A DNA stretch of 64,000 nt from a virus. The stretch lies in IMG/VR virus record IMGVR_UViG_3300033149_004753, positions 1-64,000 of that record; one strand, written 5' to 3'. The position numbers and the translations under genes were made by a program. This document shows positions 14,986 to 45,664 of this stretch, piece by piece; the stretch's first letter is position 1; each line of letters starts with the position of its first letter. The notes under the pieces are model-generated. The model had not been told where the DNA came from. It saw only the letters and a program-made list of their open reading frames with translations, and did no database searches.

Positions 14986-15390
14986 ATGAAAAAAATATAT
15001 CAATCTGATAATAATATTTTAATGAATCCTCCAACATGGTTGCCAGAGGAGTATCATGAATGGTGGAAAGATTTTTCTTTATATTTTCCATTTCTTATAT
15101 CACAAGGTTGGAAATTTTCAATTCCTGTATTCAAAGGGTTATTAAAAAGATATCATTATGAAGTTTACAAGAATATATTTGGAGAATGGAGAAGTAAGTT
15201 TGACAGGATAGAAGAAGCAAAGAAATATTTGAAAGTAATATTATCACCTTATATTAGTGTTGATAATATAAGAACAAGAGATGTGGAAATAGTGGTAATT
15301 TTGGAAGAAGATGATGAATATATCAGAAACATCACTCCACAAAGAATATTTGGTGTAAACGTAAACTTTCAAATTGGAGAAGACTTTTGA
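14986..15390 (+). CDS. Unrecognised aromatic-rich protein
   Basis: A 134-residue protein rich in Trp, Tyr and Phe (PTWLPEEYHEWWKDFSLYF near the start). The ribosome binding site is weak. Its end overlaps the start of the next gene. No family recognised; it could be virion-associated given the neighbouring fibre genes. Confidence 0.55.
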   Translation: MKKIYQSDNNILMNPPTWLPEEYHEWWKDFSLYFPFLISQGWKFSIPVFKGLLKRYHYEVYKNIFGEWRSKFDRIEEAKKYLKVILSPYISVDNIRTRDVEIVVILEEDDEYIRNITPQRIFGVNVNFQIGEDF

Positions 15391-18939: not shown

Positions 18940-19129
18940 GAAGAAAGGAAAAGTTATAGGAGAATATTTGGTTATTGGTGTTCTCAGAAATAATGAATCT
19001 GAATCTTTTTATGTTCCTGAAGGTTATATTCCTGTGTCGGCTACTGCTTGGCCTTTTGGACATAGAATTATATGTGAAAAGAAAAGTTTACTCTATAAAT
19101 ATAGAAGATGGATAAGAGGAATTATTTAG
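18911..19129 (+). CDS. Unrecognised small basic protein
   Basis: A 72-residue protein, very basic at both ends, with a central beta-rich segment (GEYLVIGVLRNNESESFYV). The start could be 18911 or the ATG at 18920; neither has a good ribosome binding site. No family recognised. Confidence 0.45.
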   Translation: MREMKKLRNKKKGKVIGEYLVIGVLRNNESESFYVPEGYIPVSATAWPFGHRIICEKKSLLYKYRRWIRGII

Positions 19130-19177
19130 TTAGAGAAAGTTAAAATTTGTATTATTTATTTAGGAGGAATTGAAAAT

Positions 19178-19405
19178 ATGAAAAGGATTAAACAATCTCA
19201 AACTTTATCTTCTGAGTACGCTTCAGTATTGAGAGATATGCTTGCTAATGAAAGTTTTTCAAATGTTTTGGATTATATGGCTATGGAGGCCAGATATTAT
19301 CGTGTTGAAGAAGATAATCCTGGGTTTATGGATATTGCAAATATTATAGAAGAAGCTAAAAGAAAAGTATGGGACATTGAAGGTGAGATGGTAGAAGGAG
19401 TTTGA
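19178..19405 (+). CDS. Small MKRIK-header protein
   Basis: A 75-residue helical protein (MKRIKQSQTLSSEYASV) with a strong TAGGAGGA site. Its MKRIK opening matches 16767, 17055 and the broken gene directly downstream. The body is acidic and helical. Function unknown. Confidence 0.65.
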   Translation: MKRIKQSQTLSSEYASVLRDMLANESFSNVLDYMAMEARYYRVEEDNPGFMDIANIIEEAKRKVWDIEGEMVEGV

Positions 19406-19407
19406 TT

Positions 19408-19556
19408 ATGAAAAGAATTAAATGAGCACAGGAAGGTCTTGAAACTGTTCTGATCTGGTATTATCAACAGTTCATAAAATTGATGGGTATCTGATAGAAC
19501 TAAGGGATTTAAGGACGGCTTTGGAAGAGGCCAGCAAAGGAATAGCGGAAGAATAA
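19408..19556 (+). pseudogene. Broken MKRIK-header gene
   Basis: ATG AAA AGA ATT AAA is followed by TGA at codon 6, then AQEGLET in the same frame. After a frame change near 19445-19470, translation continues LSTVHKIDGYLIELRDLRTA and ALEEASKGIAEE to TAA at 19554-19556. Header and tail both look like a normal protein of this family, so it is probably a small gene with a nonsense change and a frameshift. If codon 6 was once K or R, the header would read MKRIK(K/R)AQ, matching the junction motif in other proteins of this phage. Confidence 0.6.
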
Positions 19557-29355: not shown

Positions 29356-31494
29356 ATGGCTAAAAAAGTTAAAAAATCAGGATTGAAGTTTGATAATAAA
29401 GAAAACTATTTCCCGATGATAATTCGCACTTCTGGAAACAAAGACTGGATTACAGAGGAAGTCACAAGATTTTATGAAGGAACTCAAGAAGGTATAAGTA
29501 AGTCAGGTCAAATCATAGGAGGGGGAACTTCGGCTGTCAGTCCTAATATTTCTGTAACTGTTCCTCAACCTTATATTCCTGAGTTTGCATCTCCTGACAG
29601 ATTGTTTTTTCCAAGCAATGTCAAGGAAGCAATGAAGTATTGGAGATTCTTTTATGCTCTTGATCCAGTTTGCGGAAATATAATTGATATGTACTCGGAG
29701 ATGCTTTTGTCTGATGCTGAGCTTTCAGGAGAAGGGTTTGATAGTGAAATAAGGGATATATGTTATCAGGCTTTGGAGGATACAGAGGCTTTAGGACAAT
29801 TTAGATGGTTGATAGTTGGTTATATGGTTGATGGAGAGGTTATTCCTCATCTGATTTGGGATGAGAATCAGGGTCATTGGATTTATCTAGGATTTCAAGA
29901 CCCTATGAATGTGATAGTTGAGGATGTTCCATTTATAGGAGTTGATCCTTATGTGGAACTTGAAATTTCGGATAAAGTTAGAAATATGCTGACTAATCCC
30001 GATCCTAAATTTGAAAGATTTAGAAAGAATGTTCCTGAAGAATTTCTTGAATTAATTATGATGGGAAGAAATATACCATTAAACACGGAAGAAAATGTAA
30101 CTTTTATTCCTAGAAGATTAAGTCCTTATGATGTGAGGGGTGTAAGTATATTTAGTAGAATATGGAGAGTTTTGATGTATGAGGATGCAATATTTAATGC
30201 TAGTTTGGCTACTGCTCGAAGACATGCCGGACCTTTGAAAATTGCAAAATTAGGAAACCCTGCAACCGGGTGGATACCTGGGCCGGAGCATGAAGACAAA
30301 TTAAGATCATTATTAGCAATAGCTGAAACTGATCCTCATGCTTGGTTAATTTATCATTATGGTTTAAATATGGAAGCATTTGGAACAACAGAAAGAGTAA
30401 TGACTATAGATAAGAATTGGGATGTGATTGAAAGAATTAAACTCATAGCTTTTGGAACTTCCAAGGCTTTTCTCACAGGAGAGGTGACATATGCCAGCTC
30501 TTATGTAGATTCTAATATAACAATGTTTGATAAGTCAACTAAAAGTATTGGTGATGTTAAAATTGGGGATAAAGTTATAGATAGATTTGGAAATGTTAAA
30601 GAAGTGACTGATGTTTTGGTTTATCCGTCTCCTGATGAGATGATGGAAATAACTTTAGTTGATGATAAAAAATTAACTATTACAGATAATCATAAATTAC
30701 CTGTTGGTGAAAATGGTTTAAAGATAAGAGCAGATGAGATTACGGATACTGATTATTTGTATTCTCCCTTAGAAGATAAATATATAAAAGTTAAGTCTGT
30801 AAGTAAAGTAAAGGTTGATAAGAGTGTAAATCCTGAAGTTTATAGTTTGACTGTAAAAGATACGGAGAGTTATATTTTAGATGGGATTGCTTCTTATAAT
30901 TCAGCAGAAAAAGGTTTACAAATATTTCTTTCAAGATTGAATGGTATGAGATCATTCTTTGAAAGGAGATGGTGGTATCCTAGATTTTTTAAAGTTATGG
31001 CTGAGAAAAATGATTGGATCATGCCAACTGAGGCAGAAGTTAAGCATCGAGTAAAAACTAAAAGAAGCAGGAGAGAACTTGAAGAAGGAAATAGGTATAT
31101 TATTCCTAAGATAGTATGGAGTAAAAGTCTTGATCCTCAGAGTAAGGGGGACCTTGTAAGATTATATGGGGAGATAAAAGAAAAATTTGGGGTTAATGTT
31201 TCAAGAACTGAAGCATCTGCTACTGTAGGGTTGAATTGGAAGGAGGAGGAAGAAAAATGGAGAGAGGAAAATAAAGTTCTTAGAGAATTAGAAGAAAAAT
31301 ATGGAGAAGAAGGTGAGTCTCCTGCTGAAAAAACTCCAGAAAGTTCAGGTGGTTTTTTACCTCCTGGTGGTCCTCCTCCTCCAGGAATTGGGAGTCCTGG
31401 GGAAATGGAGGAATTAGAAACTCCTGTGGAAGGGGAGGAAATTGAAGAAGGAGAAGAAATTCCTCCTGAAGAAGCTGGAGCAGAAGTTGAATAG
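29356..31494 (+). CDS. Portal protein with mini-intein
   Basis: A 712-residue portal precursor. The extein opening (YWRFFYALDPVCGNIIDMYS) and the FERRWWYPRFFKVM segment are portal-type; TGEVTYA joined to SAEKGLQIFLSRL restores the conserved portal helix. The C-terminal tail is acidic and proline/glycine-rich. Portals form the dodecameric ring through which DNA enters and to which the neck attaches. An intein occupies residues 381-515. The start follows AAAGGAG. It is followed by a terminator and a new promoter. Confidence 0.85.
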   Translation: MAKKVKKSGLKFDNKENYFPMIIRTSGNKDWITEEVTRFYEGTQEGISKSGQIIGGGTSAVSPNISVTVPQPYIPEFASPDRLFFPSNVKEAMKYWRFFYALDPVCGNIIDMYSEMLLSDAELSGEGFDSEIRDICYQALEDTEALGQFRWLIVGYMVDGEVIPHLIWDENQGHWIYLGFQDPMNVIVEDVPFIGVDPYVELEISDKVRNMLTNPDPKFERFRKNVPEEFLELIMMGRNIPLNTEENVTFIPRRLSPYDVRGVSIFSRIWRVLMYEDAIFNASLATARRHAGPLKIAKLGNPATGWIPGPEHEDKLRSLLAIAETDPHAWLIYHYGLNMEAFGTTERVMTIDKNWDVIERIKLIAFGTSKAFLTGEVTYASSYVDSNITMFDKSTKSIGDVKIGDKVIDRFGNVKEVTDVLVYPSPDEMMEITLVDDKKLTITDNHKLPVGENGLKIRADEITDTDYLYSPLEDKYIKVKSVSKVKVDKSVNPEVYSLTVKDTESYILDGIASYNSAEKGLQIFLSRLNGMRSFFERRWWYPRFFKVMAEKNDWIMPTEAEVKHRVKTKRSRRELEEGNRYIIPKIVWSKSLDPQSKGDLVRLYGEIKEKFGVNVSRTEASATVGLNWKEEEEKWREENKVLRELEEKYGEEGESPAEKTPESSGGFLPPGGPPPPGIGSPGEMEELETPVEGEEIEEGEEIPPEEAGAEVE
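30496..30900 (+). other. Mini-intein in the portal gene
   Basis: A 135-residue in-frame insert starting with Ser (SSYVDSNITMFDKS, then IGDVKIGDKV as block A), with block B TITDNHKLPV and block F VYSLTVKDTESYILDG, ending ASYN before extein SAEKG. No endonuclease domain is present. The first residue is Ser and the penultimate is Tyr rather than His. Removal yields an uninterrupted portal helix. The exact first residue (30496 or 30499) is uncertain. Confidence 0.85.
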
Positions 31495-36217: not shown

Positions 36218-37270
36218 ATGCGAAAGAATCCTTATAGAGAATATAAGTCTGGTAGAACAGGAAAGTTATGGGAGGAAGACCCTTTTGAGAAGGATTTTGA
36301 TAGAAATGGTGAGCTTAATGCTTGGGATAATAAAGATGCTGGAAATAGAATTAGTGATATTTTAAGAAGAGCTTCTTCTCAAAAAACTGAAGTTATACGT
36401 AAATCTTTAGTAGGAGAAGACGTTAGGCGACGTGTGCTTACTGCGGCGGCTAAAGACCCTCAAGAGGGGATGAAGGTTATAGCTCAGACTCTTGGAGAAG
36501 TTGTTTACAAGATCGTGGACTATGCTGGATGGACTCGAAAGGTTCTGGATGTTGTTACTCTGAATCAGGGTGAAATATTTAGAATCCCGAAAGATGTTGA
36601 TGTTCTTGGTTGGGTTGTTGCTGGTGATGGTCAAACCATAGTTTCACAGCTTCGTTCAAAGTATGTTTTCCCTGGTGAGTTCAAGAATACAGCCTTTGTG
36701 GAGATTGATATACTTGATATCGTACAGGCTAATTGGGATATTTTTGATCGTGGTGTGGATCGTGCGGCTCAGCAGATAATGAGAGGTGAGGATGTTCGGG
36801 CACAACAGCTTTTGGATAGGGTTGGTAGAACTGTCAATGATGTTGTTACCTACGCGACTTTGAATCTTAATGTCTTTGAAGACGTGAGATTTCAGGTTGA
36901 AAGACACAGGCTGACTTGTGATAAGTTCATCATCTCAAGAAGTGAACTTTCTGACATAGTTAAAACTATGTCCACGGAAGTTGATTTTGTTACTCAGAGA
37001 GAGTTGATCCTAGCAGGTTATATTGGGAATGTTCTGAATTGTCAGATCATTACATCTGCTGGTATTGGAGTAGAGGAGGTTGTTCCTCCTGGTAGGATTT
37101 ATGCTGTTACTGAGGGTAAGTATCTCGGAAGGCTTGGTGAAAGATTATCACTTCAGAGTGAAGAGTATAATACTCTTGTGAGAAACGAGATTAAGAAGGG
37201 TGTTGCTCAGTACGAGATTATTGGTCTTGGTAACGGTAACAGTAAGGCTGTGGCTATCGGTTCTAAGTAA
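36218..37270 (+). CDS. Major capsid protein
   Basis: A 350-residue protein with a strong AGGAGGT site, in the usual place after protease and decoration genes. The pattern (charged N-terminal arm, EVVYKIVDYAGWTRKVLD, then a beta-rich HK97-like domain with FIISRSELSDIVKTM and a C-terminal ERLSLQSEEYNT) fits an HK97-fold shell protein. Its N-terminal 60 residues may be removed at maturation. The codon set is somewhat richer in G+C and well adapted, as expected for the most abundant protein. Confidence 0.8.
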   Translation: MRKNPYREYKSGRTGKLWEEDPFEKDFDRNGELNAWDNKDAGNRISDILRRASSQKTEVIRKSLVGEDVRRRVLTAAAKDPQEGMKVIAQTLGEVVYKIVDYAGWTRKVLDVVTLNQGEIFRIPKDVDVLGWVVAGDGQTIVSQLRSKYVFPGEFKNTAFVEIDILDIVQANWDIFDRGVDRAAQQIMRGEDVRAQQLLDRVGRTVNDVVTYATLNLNVFEDVRFQVERHRLTCDKFIISRSELSDIVKTMSTEVDFVTQRELILAGYIGNVLNCQIITSAGIGVEEVVPPGRIYAVTEGKYLGRLGERLSLQSEEYNTLVRNEIKKGVAQYEIIGLGNGNSKAVAIGSK

Positions 37271-37297
37271 AGTTTTTAAGTTTTAATTGGAACAATA

Positions 37298-37340
37298 CCT
37301 TTGTCTTCATGAGGAAGATAAAGAGGTGGGTGAAAATCCC
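37298..37340 (+). ncRNA. Candidate structured RNA upstream of PLMP locus 1
   Basis: In the 90-base gap after the capsid gene, CCUUUGUCUUC (37298-37308) pairs with GAAGAUAAAGAGG (37314-37326) around the loop AUGAG, leaving a two-base bulge, then GGG (37328-37330) pairs with CCC (37338-37340). The stem is 11 pairs with one G-U. It lies 20 bases before the ATG of the PLMP-type reading frame. In IscB systems the omega-RNA also lies just upstream of the protein. Homology to omega-RNA/HEARO cannot be shown here. Confidence 0.4.
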
Positions 37341-37360
37341 TGATCGAATAATGAAAGAAG

Positions 37361-38239
37361 ATGGAAAATTCAAAAAAGAGTGTTCAAGTTGTAGATTTAA
37401 TATATCGAAGGTTAGAGCCTACGAGACCAGGCAAAGCCAGAAAATTATTAGGTTCAGGAAAAGCAAAGTTATTAGATGAGGGATTGCCTTTAATTCAACT
37501 ACAGAAAAAAGTATTCAAAAAGGAGGATACGAAAATGGATCGAAGGAGTATTGAAAGTTATTTTAAGGAAAATGATGAAGTATACGTTCAAAATATTTCG
37601 GGAGGAGTAGTATCAATGAGTTTTTATTCTGGTCAAAGACCTGAACCTTTTACTCTTCCTAATGATAGAAGACCTATAAATCTTTCTGATTATATGACTA
37701 AGGAGATAATTAAAAGTTCTCCTGATTTTAGAAAGTTGGTTATGCGGAGACCTCCTGCACTCAGGTTGCTTACTGTTGAACAATATGAAAATACTATAAG
37801 GAAGATTGCAAAAGAAACTTCTAAAGAACCTGATGATATAGTAGAAGAAATTGCTGAAAAGATCAGTAAGCATAGGAGTAAAGAACTTGAACCTTTAAAA
37901 GAAGAAAAAGATAGTTTGAAAATGGATGTTATGGAAACTCCTATGGATGAGGGTGTAGAAGATAATGATTTAGAAATTCCTGGAACTGCTGATACAGGGT
38001 TAAATCCTAGAGTGTTACAGATAATTTCTCAAACTTCTTCTTTGTCTGAAAATAGGATGAAAGCTTCTGAAGTGATTGATGAGCTTGGAAAGTTGAATCT
38101 GACTGTTGATGAATACAATTATGTAATTGGTGGTTGTGGTTATAAGACAGTTGTGGCTTGGGCGCAGAAAAGACTTTCAGTATTACAGAAAGAACAAAGT
38201 GAGGAAACTACAGAGAAGAATGATAATATTGAGTCGTAA
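37361..38239 (+). CDS. PLMP/RRXRR-type peptide fused in frame to a head protein
   Basis: Residues 1-50 contain VVDLIYRRLEPTRPGKARK and LLGSGKAKLLDEGLPLIQL, the pattern of the PLMP (RRXRR) domain at the N-terminus of IscB-type proteins. At residue 59 an ATG (37535) has its own strong site (AAAGGAGG), so a shorter 234-residue protein is probably made alone. That part (VYVQNISGGVVSMSF, then LNLTVDEYNYVIGG near the end) is an unassigned structural-type protein downstream of the capsid gene. No RuvC or HNH nuclease is present. The PLMP part may be a relict, an RNA-binding header or a separate short product. Confidence 0.65.
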   Translation: MENSKKSVQVVDLIYRRLEPTRPGKARKLLGSGKAKLLDEGLPLIQLQKKVFKKEDTKMDRRSIESYFKENDEVYVQNISGGVVSMSFYSGQRPEPFTLPNDRRPINLSDYMTKEIIKSSPDFRKLVMRRPPALRLLTVEQYENTIRKIAKETSKEPDDIVEEIAEKISKHRSKELEPLKEEKDSLKMDVMETPMDEGVEDNDLEIPGTADTGLNPRVLQIISQTSSLSENRMKASEVIDELGKLNLTVDEYNYVIGGCGYKTVVAWAQKRLSVLQKEQSEETTEKNDNIES

Positions 38240-42242: not shown

Positions 42243-42986
42243 ATGGGGATAATTGAAATATCAAAAGAATTAAGAAATTGGATAATCCTGATTGTAGTTT
42301 TAGGAGTATTGGGGTTGGTAGGTTGTCTATATGGAAAGAACTATATAGACAATAAAAATAAACAAATAAATGATCTTGAGAAAAAACTGAGAGAGAAACC
42401 TAAAGTTGAAATCAAGTACCAGGATAGGGTAGTTGAAAAGGAAGTTATCAAATATAAAGATAGATGGCGTGTAAAGACGGAAGAGAGGATAGTCTATAAA
42501 GAACCCTCACTGGAGGTGCAAAAGGCATTTTTGATCTATTGCGAAGCATGTGAGAAGGAAAATATATCTCCTTTGATAAGTATAGATGCTCTGAGATTCA
42601 AATGCACTGCTAATATCTGCAATCAGGAAGAATCAGAATGTGATGTGCAGGAGGGATATACGATTGTTAAAGAAAAAGAAATTAAAGATAAAATAGCTAA
42701 AATTTCTGTGATTGGTGGTTATGAATTTGTAAATAAAGGTATGATGATAGGAGCTAGTTTTATAGATTATAAAGGAATAACAGTGGGAGCAGATATGGTT
42801 TCTGATTTTGAAAATGCTGAAAATTCAGGAATTGGAGGGTTTGTAGGGTATAGACCACAAACTAAGAAATGGAAATTGAATACAGTTGTTGGAGTAGGAG
42901 CTTTAAGTCATTTTGATGATTTTTCTGAGATAGGACTTCAAGGTTTCATAGGTTTTAATATAATTGATCGGAAGAGTAGAAAATGA
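42243..42986 (+). CDS. Membrane-anchored protein with beta-rich C-terminus
   Basis: A 247-residue protein. An N-terminal membrane helix (ILIVVLGVLGLVGCLYG) is followed by a charged coiled coil (QINDLEKKLREKPKVEIKYQ), a cysteine-containing middle (CEAC, CTANIC, C at about 140) and a beta-rich, glycine-patterned C-terminal third (GGYEFVNKGMMIGASFIDY). It could span the envelope like a spanin, but no lipobox is obvious and no lysis neighbour is present. The middle (about 42.4-42.65 kb) is richer in G+C than the flanks. The ribosome binding site is weak. Confidence 0.6.
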   Translation: MGIIEISKELRNWIILIVVLGVLGLVGCLYGKNYIDNKNKQINDLEKKLREKPKVEIKYQDRVVEKEVIKYKDRWRVKTEERIVYKEPSLEVQKAFLIYCEACEKENISPLISIDALRFKCTANICNQEESECDVQEGYTIVKEKEIKDKIAKISVIGGYEFVNKGMMIGASFIDYKGITVGADMVSDFENAENSGIGGFVGYRPQTKKWKLNTVVGVGALSHFDDFSEIGLQGFIGFNIIDRKSRK

Positions 42987-43306
42987 AAAAAATAAGAATA
43001 TATGAGAAACTTAAAGGTTGGAAATTAAAATGGTATGTTGCTGGATGGGATGATTTGGATTTGGCAAGAAAATGGTATGAGGCAGGATGGGACAATCCTA
43101 CCTCAGCTATGGGTTTTTATGAAGCTGGTTGGTTAGACCCTATATTAGCTCTTGAATGGAAAAAATCTGGATGGAGTGGGATTGATGCTGATTATGCTCT
43201 GAAATATTATAATAAAGGTTTTGATCCTTCAGAGGCTCTTCATTTTTTTGAAGATGAAGGTTTAAGACCTGATGAAGCTTTGGAGATGATGAAAAATGAC
43301 GTTTAA
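42983..43306 (+). CDS. Protein of short AGW repeats
   Basis: A 107-residue protein made of about six 15-17-residue units of the form WYxAGWDxPxxA (WYVAGWDDLDLARK, WYEAGWDNPTSAMG, FYEAGWLDPILALE, then weaker units ending FFEDEGLRPDEALE). It overlaps the previous stop (ATGA). Such helical repeats occur in bacterial proteins of unknown role. Function here unknown. Confidence 0.6.
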   Translation: MKKIRIYEKLKGWKLKWYVAGWDDLDLARKWYEAGWDNPTSAMGFYEAGWLDPILALEWKKSGWSGIDADYALKYYNKGFDPSEALHFFEDEGLRPDEALEMMKNDV

Positions 43307-45532: not shown

Positions 45533-45664
45533 ATGTAAAAAATTTTTGTGGTTGATAGGAAAGGAAAGTCATTTCTTTCGACTTGTTCTACAAGAGCAAG
45601 ATTATTATTGAAGAAAAATAAAGCTAAAATTATATATGGTTTTCCATTCGTAATTCAGTTGTAA
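45533..45664 (+). pseudogene. Minimal PLMP/RRXRR-type peptide gene with a stop at codon 2
   Basis: After AAGGAG, ATG (45533) is followed at once by TAA, then KIFVVDRKGKSFLSTCS, TRARLLLKKNKAKIIYG, FPFVIQL and TAA at 45662-45664. This is the full PLMP/RRXRR motif of IscB N-termini (hydrophobic VVD, LxPxxPxxAR-like stretch, K-A-K, F-x-I-Q-L) and nothing more. The stop at codon 2 means it is broken, starts internally (GTG 45548), or is read through. Its presence next to locus 1 in the same genome supports a real mini-element. Confidence 0.6.

Follow-up and report, generated by a model that had tools for sequence, protein, structure and literature searches.

IscB and IsrB, the OMEGA nucleases (PF14239, NF040563; PDB 7XHT, 8DMB, 9K30), are relatives of the Cas9 ancestor and, to our knowledge, descriptions of the PLMP domain have been confined to the head of proteins of this type. 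Their loci encode a structured RNA whose tandem hairpins immediately precede the PLMP codons. Two tandem hairpins, SL7 and SL8, are in contact with PLMP in DtIsrB; SL7 holds the Shine-Dalgarno (SD) sequence of the IsrB gene, and the authors propose a role in the regulation of expression (PMC9581776). The recognition of the tandem terminal omega-RNA hairpins by PLMP is largely sequence-independent (PMC9640706). Any role of this domain beyond holding the omega-RNA, including the control of its own expression, is conjecture (PMC9581776). Here we describe a protein sharing both the profile and the fold of PLMP, and likewise preceded by tandem hairpins, encoded directly after the major capsid protein gene in an uncultured family of microbial viruses. 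The window analysed, 64,000 nucleotides long, comprises positions 1–64,000 of the IMG/VR virus record IMGVR_UViG_3300033149_004753. On the evidence of its sequences, it is somewhat more likely than not that a nuclease-free, IscB-like OMEGA fragment has been domesticated in these phages as a cis-acting RNA-protein control module of a late gene.

In the window, the major capsid protein gene (36218–37270, + strand; phrog_2522 major head protein, 2.8e-44) is separated by 90 bases from an open reading frame (ORF) of 292 amino acids on the same strand (37361–38239), which runs unbroken through an internal ATG at 37535. The PLMP domain is encoded by the first part (37361–37534, + strand, from the long start ATG 37361), whereas residues 59–292 form the post-capsid protein, corresponding to a predicted short product encoded at 37535–38239 (+ strand). 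The latter weakly matches phrog_17686, a family without known function, is conserved in 36 distinct loci and is presumed to be a head protein from its position behind the capsid gene and this PHROG match.

The first-pass annotation had proposed, from the letters alone, that a segment of about 50 residues resembles the PLMP/RRXRR domain. The profile search bears this out, as residues 8–55 matched Pfam PF14239 (RRXRR) with E 1.4e-6 and 28.7 bits, above the cut-off of 25, and the NCBIfam guided_IscB model gave a partial match (E 4.4e-5). The same Pfam family was found in the relatives L007 (4.6e-6) and L006 (6e-7) and, weakly, in the virus Rctr197k (0.0018). When a profile of 24 relatives was compared with the PDB, TbaIscB (9.4e-17), OgeuIscB (1.3e-8) and DtIsrB (3.3e-6) were matched. 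Moreover, the AlphaFold model of the domain, the core of which is confident, has the β-β-α-β-β fold of the IscB/IsrB PLMP; its nine top PDB matches were all IscB/IsrB structures (rmsd 1.1–1.7 Å), and the model of the full-length protein yielded the same nine. The literal P-L-M-P motif is not present and L-x-x-T-x-P stands in its place; P-L-M-P gives the motif its name and is no requirement of the PF14239 profile. On these profiles and models we firmly regard residues 8–55 as a genuine PLMP domain. Ubiquitin-like and initiation factor 3 (IF3) folds were considered and rejected, their similarity being far weaker than that to IscB. The PLMP domain has been likened to the N-terminal domain of IF3 (PMC9581776), and a distant likeness of fold was indeed seen; however, 1TIF was low-ranked for both the domain and the full-protein models, far below the IscB/IsrB structures, and no IF3 family of Pfam matched the ORF. 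Viral fold matches were also obtained in PaBG and Motura, where the gene two places downstream of the capsid gene is unlike the query.

After the PLMP part of the ORF, neither Pfam nor NCBIfam gave a match to RuvC or HNH, as the first-pass annotation had already noticed. Unlike IscB and IsrB, the phage protein has no RuvC, HNH, bridge helix or TI domain, its RNA has no guide segment, and its PLMP is fused to a post-capsid protein with an internal start. A PLMP domain in a RuvC-less protein is known from IshB, which consists of PLMP and HNH; the phage version differs in lacking also the HNH, and its partner is a phage protein.

To follow the module in other viruses, relatives were sought through the capsid protein, a seed blind to PLMP, by a non-exhaustive search with back-translated patterns, which returned 62 loci from viruses and a single one from a bacterial genome bin. 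In the loci searched, a profile of the long protein found the post-capsid gene downstream in 45 (36 distinct), and in about 34 of these 36 the PLMP region lies in the same open frame; the post-capsid gene of L054 and L094 is without it. In L041 and L067 the gene has been relocated from the capsid gene, yet it retains both PLMP and the internal start, and Rctr197k, found through its capsid protein, carries a diverged version. Between close relatives, the only members in which the synonymous rate (dS) could be estimated, the nonsynonymous rate (dN) of PLMP was 0.15–0.29 against a dS of 0.66–2.2 (dN/dS about 0.1–0.3), and PLMP identity between relatives was comparable to that of the downstream domain. 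Judged from these ratios, PLMP is under purifying selection.

A second PLMP frame of about 41 amino acids lies in the window at 45533–45664 (+ strand), before the tail sheath gene. Its SD precedes an ATG whose next codon is TAA, and the PLMP stretch (45539–45664) then runs to a stop. It matched guided_IscB (E 5.5e-9) and Pfam RRXRR (8.5e-7), is of the two copies the one closer to IscB, and was identical in three near-identical records, but it was not found in the L006 and L007 stretches. The region upstream of it gave no match to the leader descriptor introduced below, and its folding was ordinary (z 0.15). This second copy is possibly a pseudogene of recent origin; alternatively, the module may be used twice. 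Its relict-like look (the ATG-TAA, the absence from relatives) and the missing RuvC and HNH are what could be said in favour of a decayed IscB insertion that stays in frame by chance; for the first copy, such an origin is hardly credible, since it is carried by a divergent family, its dN/dS is far below 1 and the internal start is conserved. The first-pass annotation had left open whether the segment is a relict or a repurposed RNA-linked header. The relict part fails because the frame is conserved family-wide under purifying selection, and the repurposed header stands. None of the outcomes that the first pass had named as refuting was seen, as the profiles match, base pairs of the RNA covary and hardly any relative lacks the upstream frame. 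Its observation is confirmed and its interpretation partly supported.

The junction between the two parts of the gene carries a start of its own. In the window, the ribosome binding site AAGGAGG (37520–37526) precedes ATG 37535 (feature 37520–37537, + strand), in agreement with the first-pass annotation, which had the frame entering a gene with its own strong ribosome binding site. In the PLMP-bearing members an ATG (GTG in L086), mostly with a strong SD, is found at the PLMP/head junction, about 45–59 residues past the first PLMP strand. The mean anti-SD duplex was −9.6 kcal/mol at the internal start versus −4.5 at the long start, the internal SD being the stronger in 22 of 26 cases (Wilcoxon P 3e-5). 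In one clade, 16 bases overlapping the internal start site, AGAGATCCCAGGGAGG, hardly vary at the DNA level. The PLMP-less L054 and L094 begin directly at the junction start, with a strong SD. Since the internal start is placed at the junction in PLMP-bearing members, two products are predicted, and the natural reading is that the gene would make a long and a short form.

The structured RNA noticed just upstream in the first pass also held up. In the window it consists of two hairpins on the + strand: the first (37297–37327) comprises AC, a stem of 10 pairs (37299–37308/37314–37323) and an SD-like AGGU (37324–37327), and the second (37328–37340), in which GGG/CCC encloses UGAAAAU, is conserved in relatives and ends 20 bases 5' of ATG 37361. 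In most members, the long start is immediately preceded by the order AC-C[stem 1]G-AGG(U)-[hairpin 2], as in AACCCCGTTTCGACGGGAGGTTGGGTAATACCCTGG of L064, GACCTCAGCATAGGGCTGAGAGTTAGGTGAAAAACCT of L007 and ACCCTCTATTTTTGAGGAGGTTAGCGAGAGCTATG of L043. A descriptor of this element, composed after the leaders had been seen, matched 21 of 31 leaders, where dinucleotide shuffles predict 1.2, and its base rate along the same loci was 0.05 per 130 nt, leaders counted in. Stem 1 positions 2–4 are GC, CG, AU or UA across clades, 100% paired versus 50% with swapped arms; because the stem arms were selected by pairing, the fair test is the descriptor count on shuffles and not the arm-swap. In one clade, both partners differ in 5 of 9 pairs, and covariation scored 0.236 (0.108 after shuffling), in an alignment that was fitted to the structure. 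Single-sequence folding of the window leader gave an ordinary minimum free energy (z −0.38); the evidence for the leader RNA is comparative. A covariance model (R1), built from one clade, recovered that clade only, because the stems differ in sequence and length. A search of viral contigs for the exact motif GGTGAAAANCCNNATCGAAT returned L007 as the only relevant match, and PLMP was not seen after the others.

Hairpins often follow the capsid gene in these and related phages, as they would if the leader were an ordinary post-capsid transcription terminator, with the long frame untranslated. We consider this highly improbable: the leader element is separate from an additional hairpin right after the capsid gene, most members having both, hairpins 1 and 2 are without the U-tract of a terminator, and the PLMP frame is under selection at the protein level. 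That selection, together with the stop-free in-frame fusion in all PLMP-bearing members and the protein contacts also made by the PLMP of IsrB (PMC9581776), would fit a structural role, in which PLMP is the N-terminal domain of a minor long virion isoform, perhaps touching nucleic acid or protein, and the leader hairpins act separately in mRNA processing, stability or translation enhancement. However, the tandem hairpin sits at the PLMP start codon and is missing exactly where PLMP is missing, with none in L054 and L094 nor in six distant PLMP-less jumbo phages. A purely structural role is rather unlikely, if worth keeping in mind.

The cis-acting control module is the reading that we favour on account of the PLMP homology, the conservation in the family, the selection, the covarying tandem hairpin, the co-occurrence of PLMP and RNA, which are also missing together, and the strong internal start. 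Several points weigh against it. Besides the post hoc origin of the descriptor, about one third of the PLMP-bearing leaders fall outside it (including L040, L042, L075, L080, L081, L096, L017, L056 and L085), and in the window phage no clear SD precedes the long start ATG 37361. The long-range pairing of the leader with the internal ribosome binding site was no better than in mismatched loci (P 0.20). Furthermore, the Rfam HEARO model (RF02033) found nothing in the window, L007, L064 or Rctr197k even with E allowed up to 10, unlike real IscB loci, which score 108–124 bits; the suggestion made in the first pass of an omega-RNA in the HEARO sense was not upheld, and Rfam as a whole returned no match for the leader. 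In the fetched IscB loci, adjacent hairpins end just before the PLMP codons, and their likeness to the phage leaders is one of layout. As a separate observation, the leaders of one subclade, L017 (about 15100–15120), L056, L058 and L085, have AACCGGC...GCCGAGGC before the start, which resembles the 3' end of the HEARO consensus, ggCGAgGcgaAc, and hairpin 2 is not evident there. This likeness is possibly a trace of the omega-RNA nexus, or may be due to chance.

How such a module could work is suggested by the leader itself, which keeps its shape while its letters vary; this agrees with the recognition of shape by PLMP, and we propose that the leader is bound by the long protein. PLMP would have been fused in frame to the post-capsid protein, while the short tandem-hairpin RNA with its SD-like AGG(U) was retained before the PLMP start. 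The long product may then bind its own leader and lower initiation at the long start, as an autogenous feedback, and the strong internal start would supply the short form; free PLMP protein could thereby set the amount and the ratio of both forms. Leader binding, the direction of control and the stoichiometry are inferred. More tentatively, a minimal OMEGA ribonucleoprotein, made of PLMP and the two terminal omega-RNA hairpins with no nuclease or guide, may persist family-wide as a translational switch of a virion gene that has two start sites.

Autogenous translational control is known for phage and ribosomal proteins, for example the MS2 coat protein, T4 RegA and gp32, and a product binding a structure at its own translation start would follow the same logic. 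Unlike in the classic repressors, the binding domain would be borrowed from an RNA-guided nuclease, and the gene has two in-frame starts. TldR proteins, TnpB-derived, nuclease-dead RNA-guided repressors also found in phages, offer another parallel, namely an OMEGA component domesticated without its nuclease as a regulator, as proposed here for the phage PLMP. In contrast to TldR, the phage module is IscB-derived and keeps only the RNA-holding domain, a cis leader replaces the guide RNA, and the proposed control is translational. Leader and PLMP might also act beyond the gene, as a trans-acting ribonucleoprotein or through the capture of host omega-RNAs by PLMP; standalone omega-RNAs acting in trans have been mentioned for IscB (PMC9581776), and the window phage has its second PLMP frame. 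We find this improbable, as there is no guide-like segment and no nuclease, and the RNA is very short and bound in position to the start codon.

In named phages, tblastn with PLMP peptides gave no match at E 1. A clade-specific scan for PLMP with other partner genes returned 16 loci, nearly all of them known PLMP-head contigs, with one new, L121; a broader PLMP alignment was too poorly conserved for scanning and the second copy too short. Our literature searches returned no report of PLMP within phage structural genes. The nuclease-free PLMP with its tandem hairpins isolates the PLMP-RNA function in nature, in dozens of natural variants, and reduces the question of whether PLMP controls translation via the RNA before its start codon to a 60-residue protein and a 45-nt RNA. 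If the proposal is true, it could reveal a self-regulating role of PLMP and leader that can be told apart from RNA-guided cutting and may even have preceded it. The nuclease-free PLMP also provides a marker by which a phage group with next to no annotation can be recognised.

Some further features were observed in the window and its relatives. The portal gene (29356–31494) carries, at about residues 387–511, an insertion resembling a mini-intein (Intein_splicing E 4.1e-7); the L007 portal aligns on either side of it without such an insertion, and that of L006 has other interruptions. By eye, a TnpB-like (OrfB) ORF was recognised among the structural genes of L006 (14635–15816; no profile was used), along with a shorter fragment (19096–19416) sharing its start and end sequences. 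Also by eye, a protease-containing protein upstream of the capsid gene in L007 (5389–9252) bears a Walker-type ATPase-like insertion (GPPGTGKS), which is absent from the window homologue, and a small ORF of the window (42983–43306) consists of repeated WYxAGWxDPxxAL-like units.
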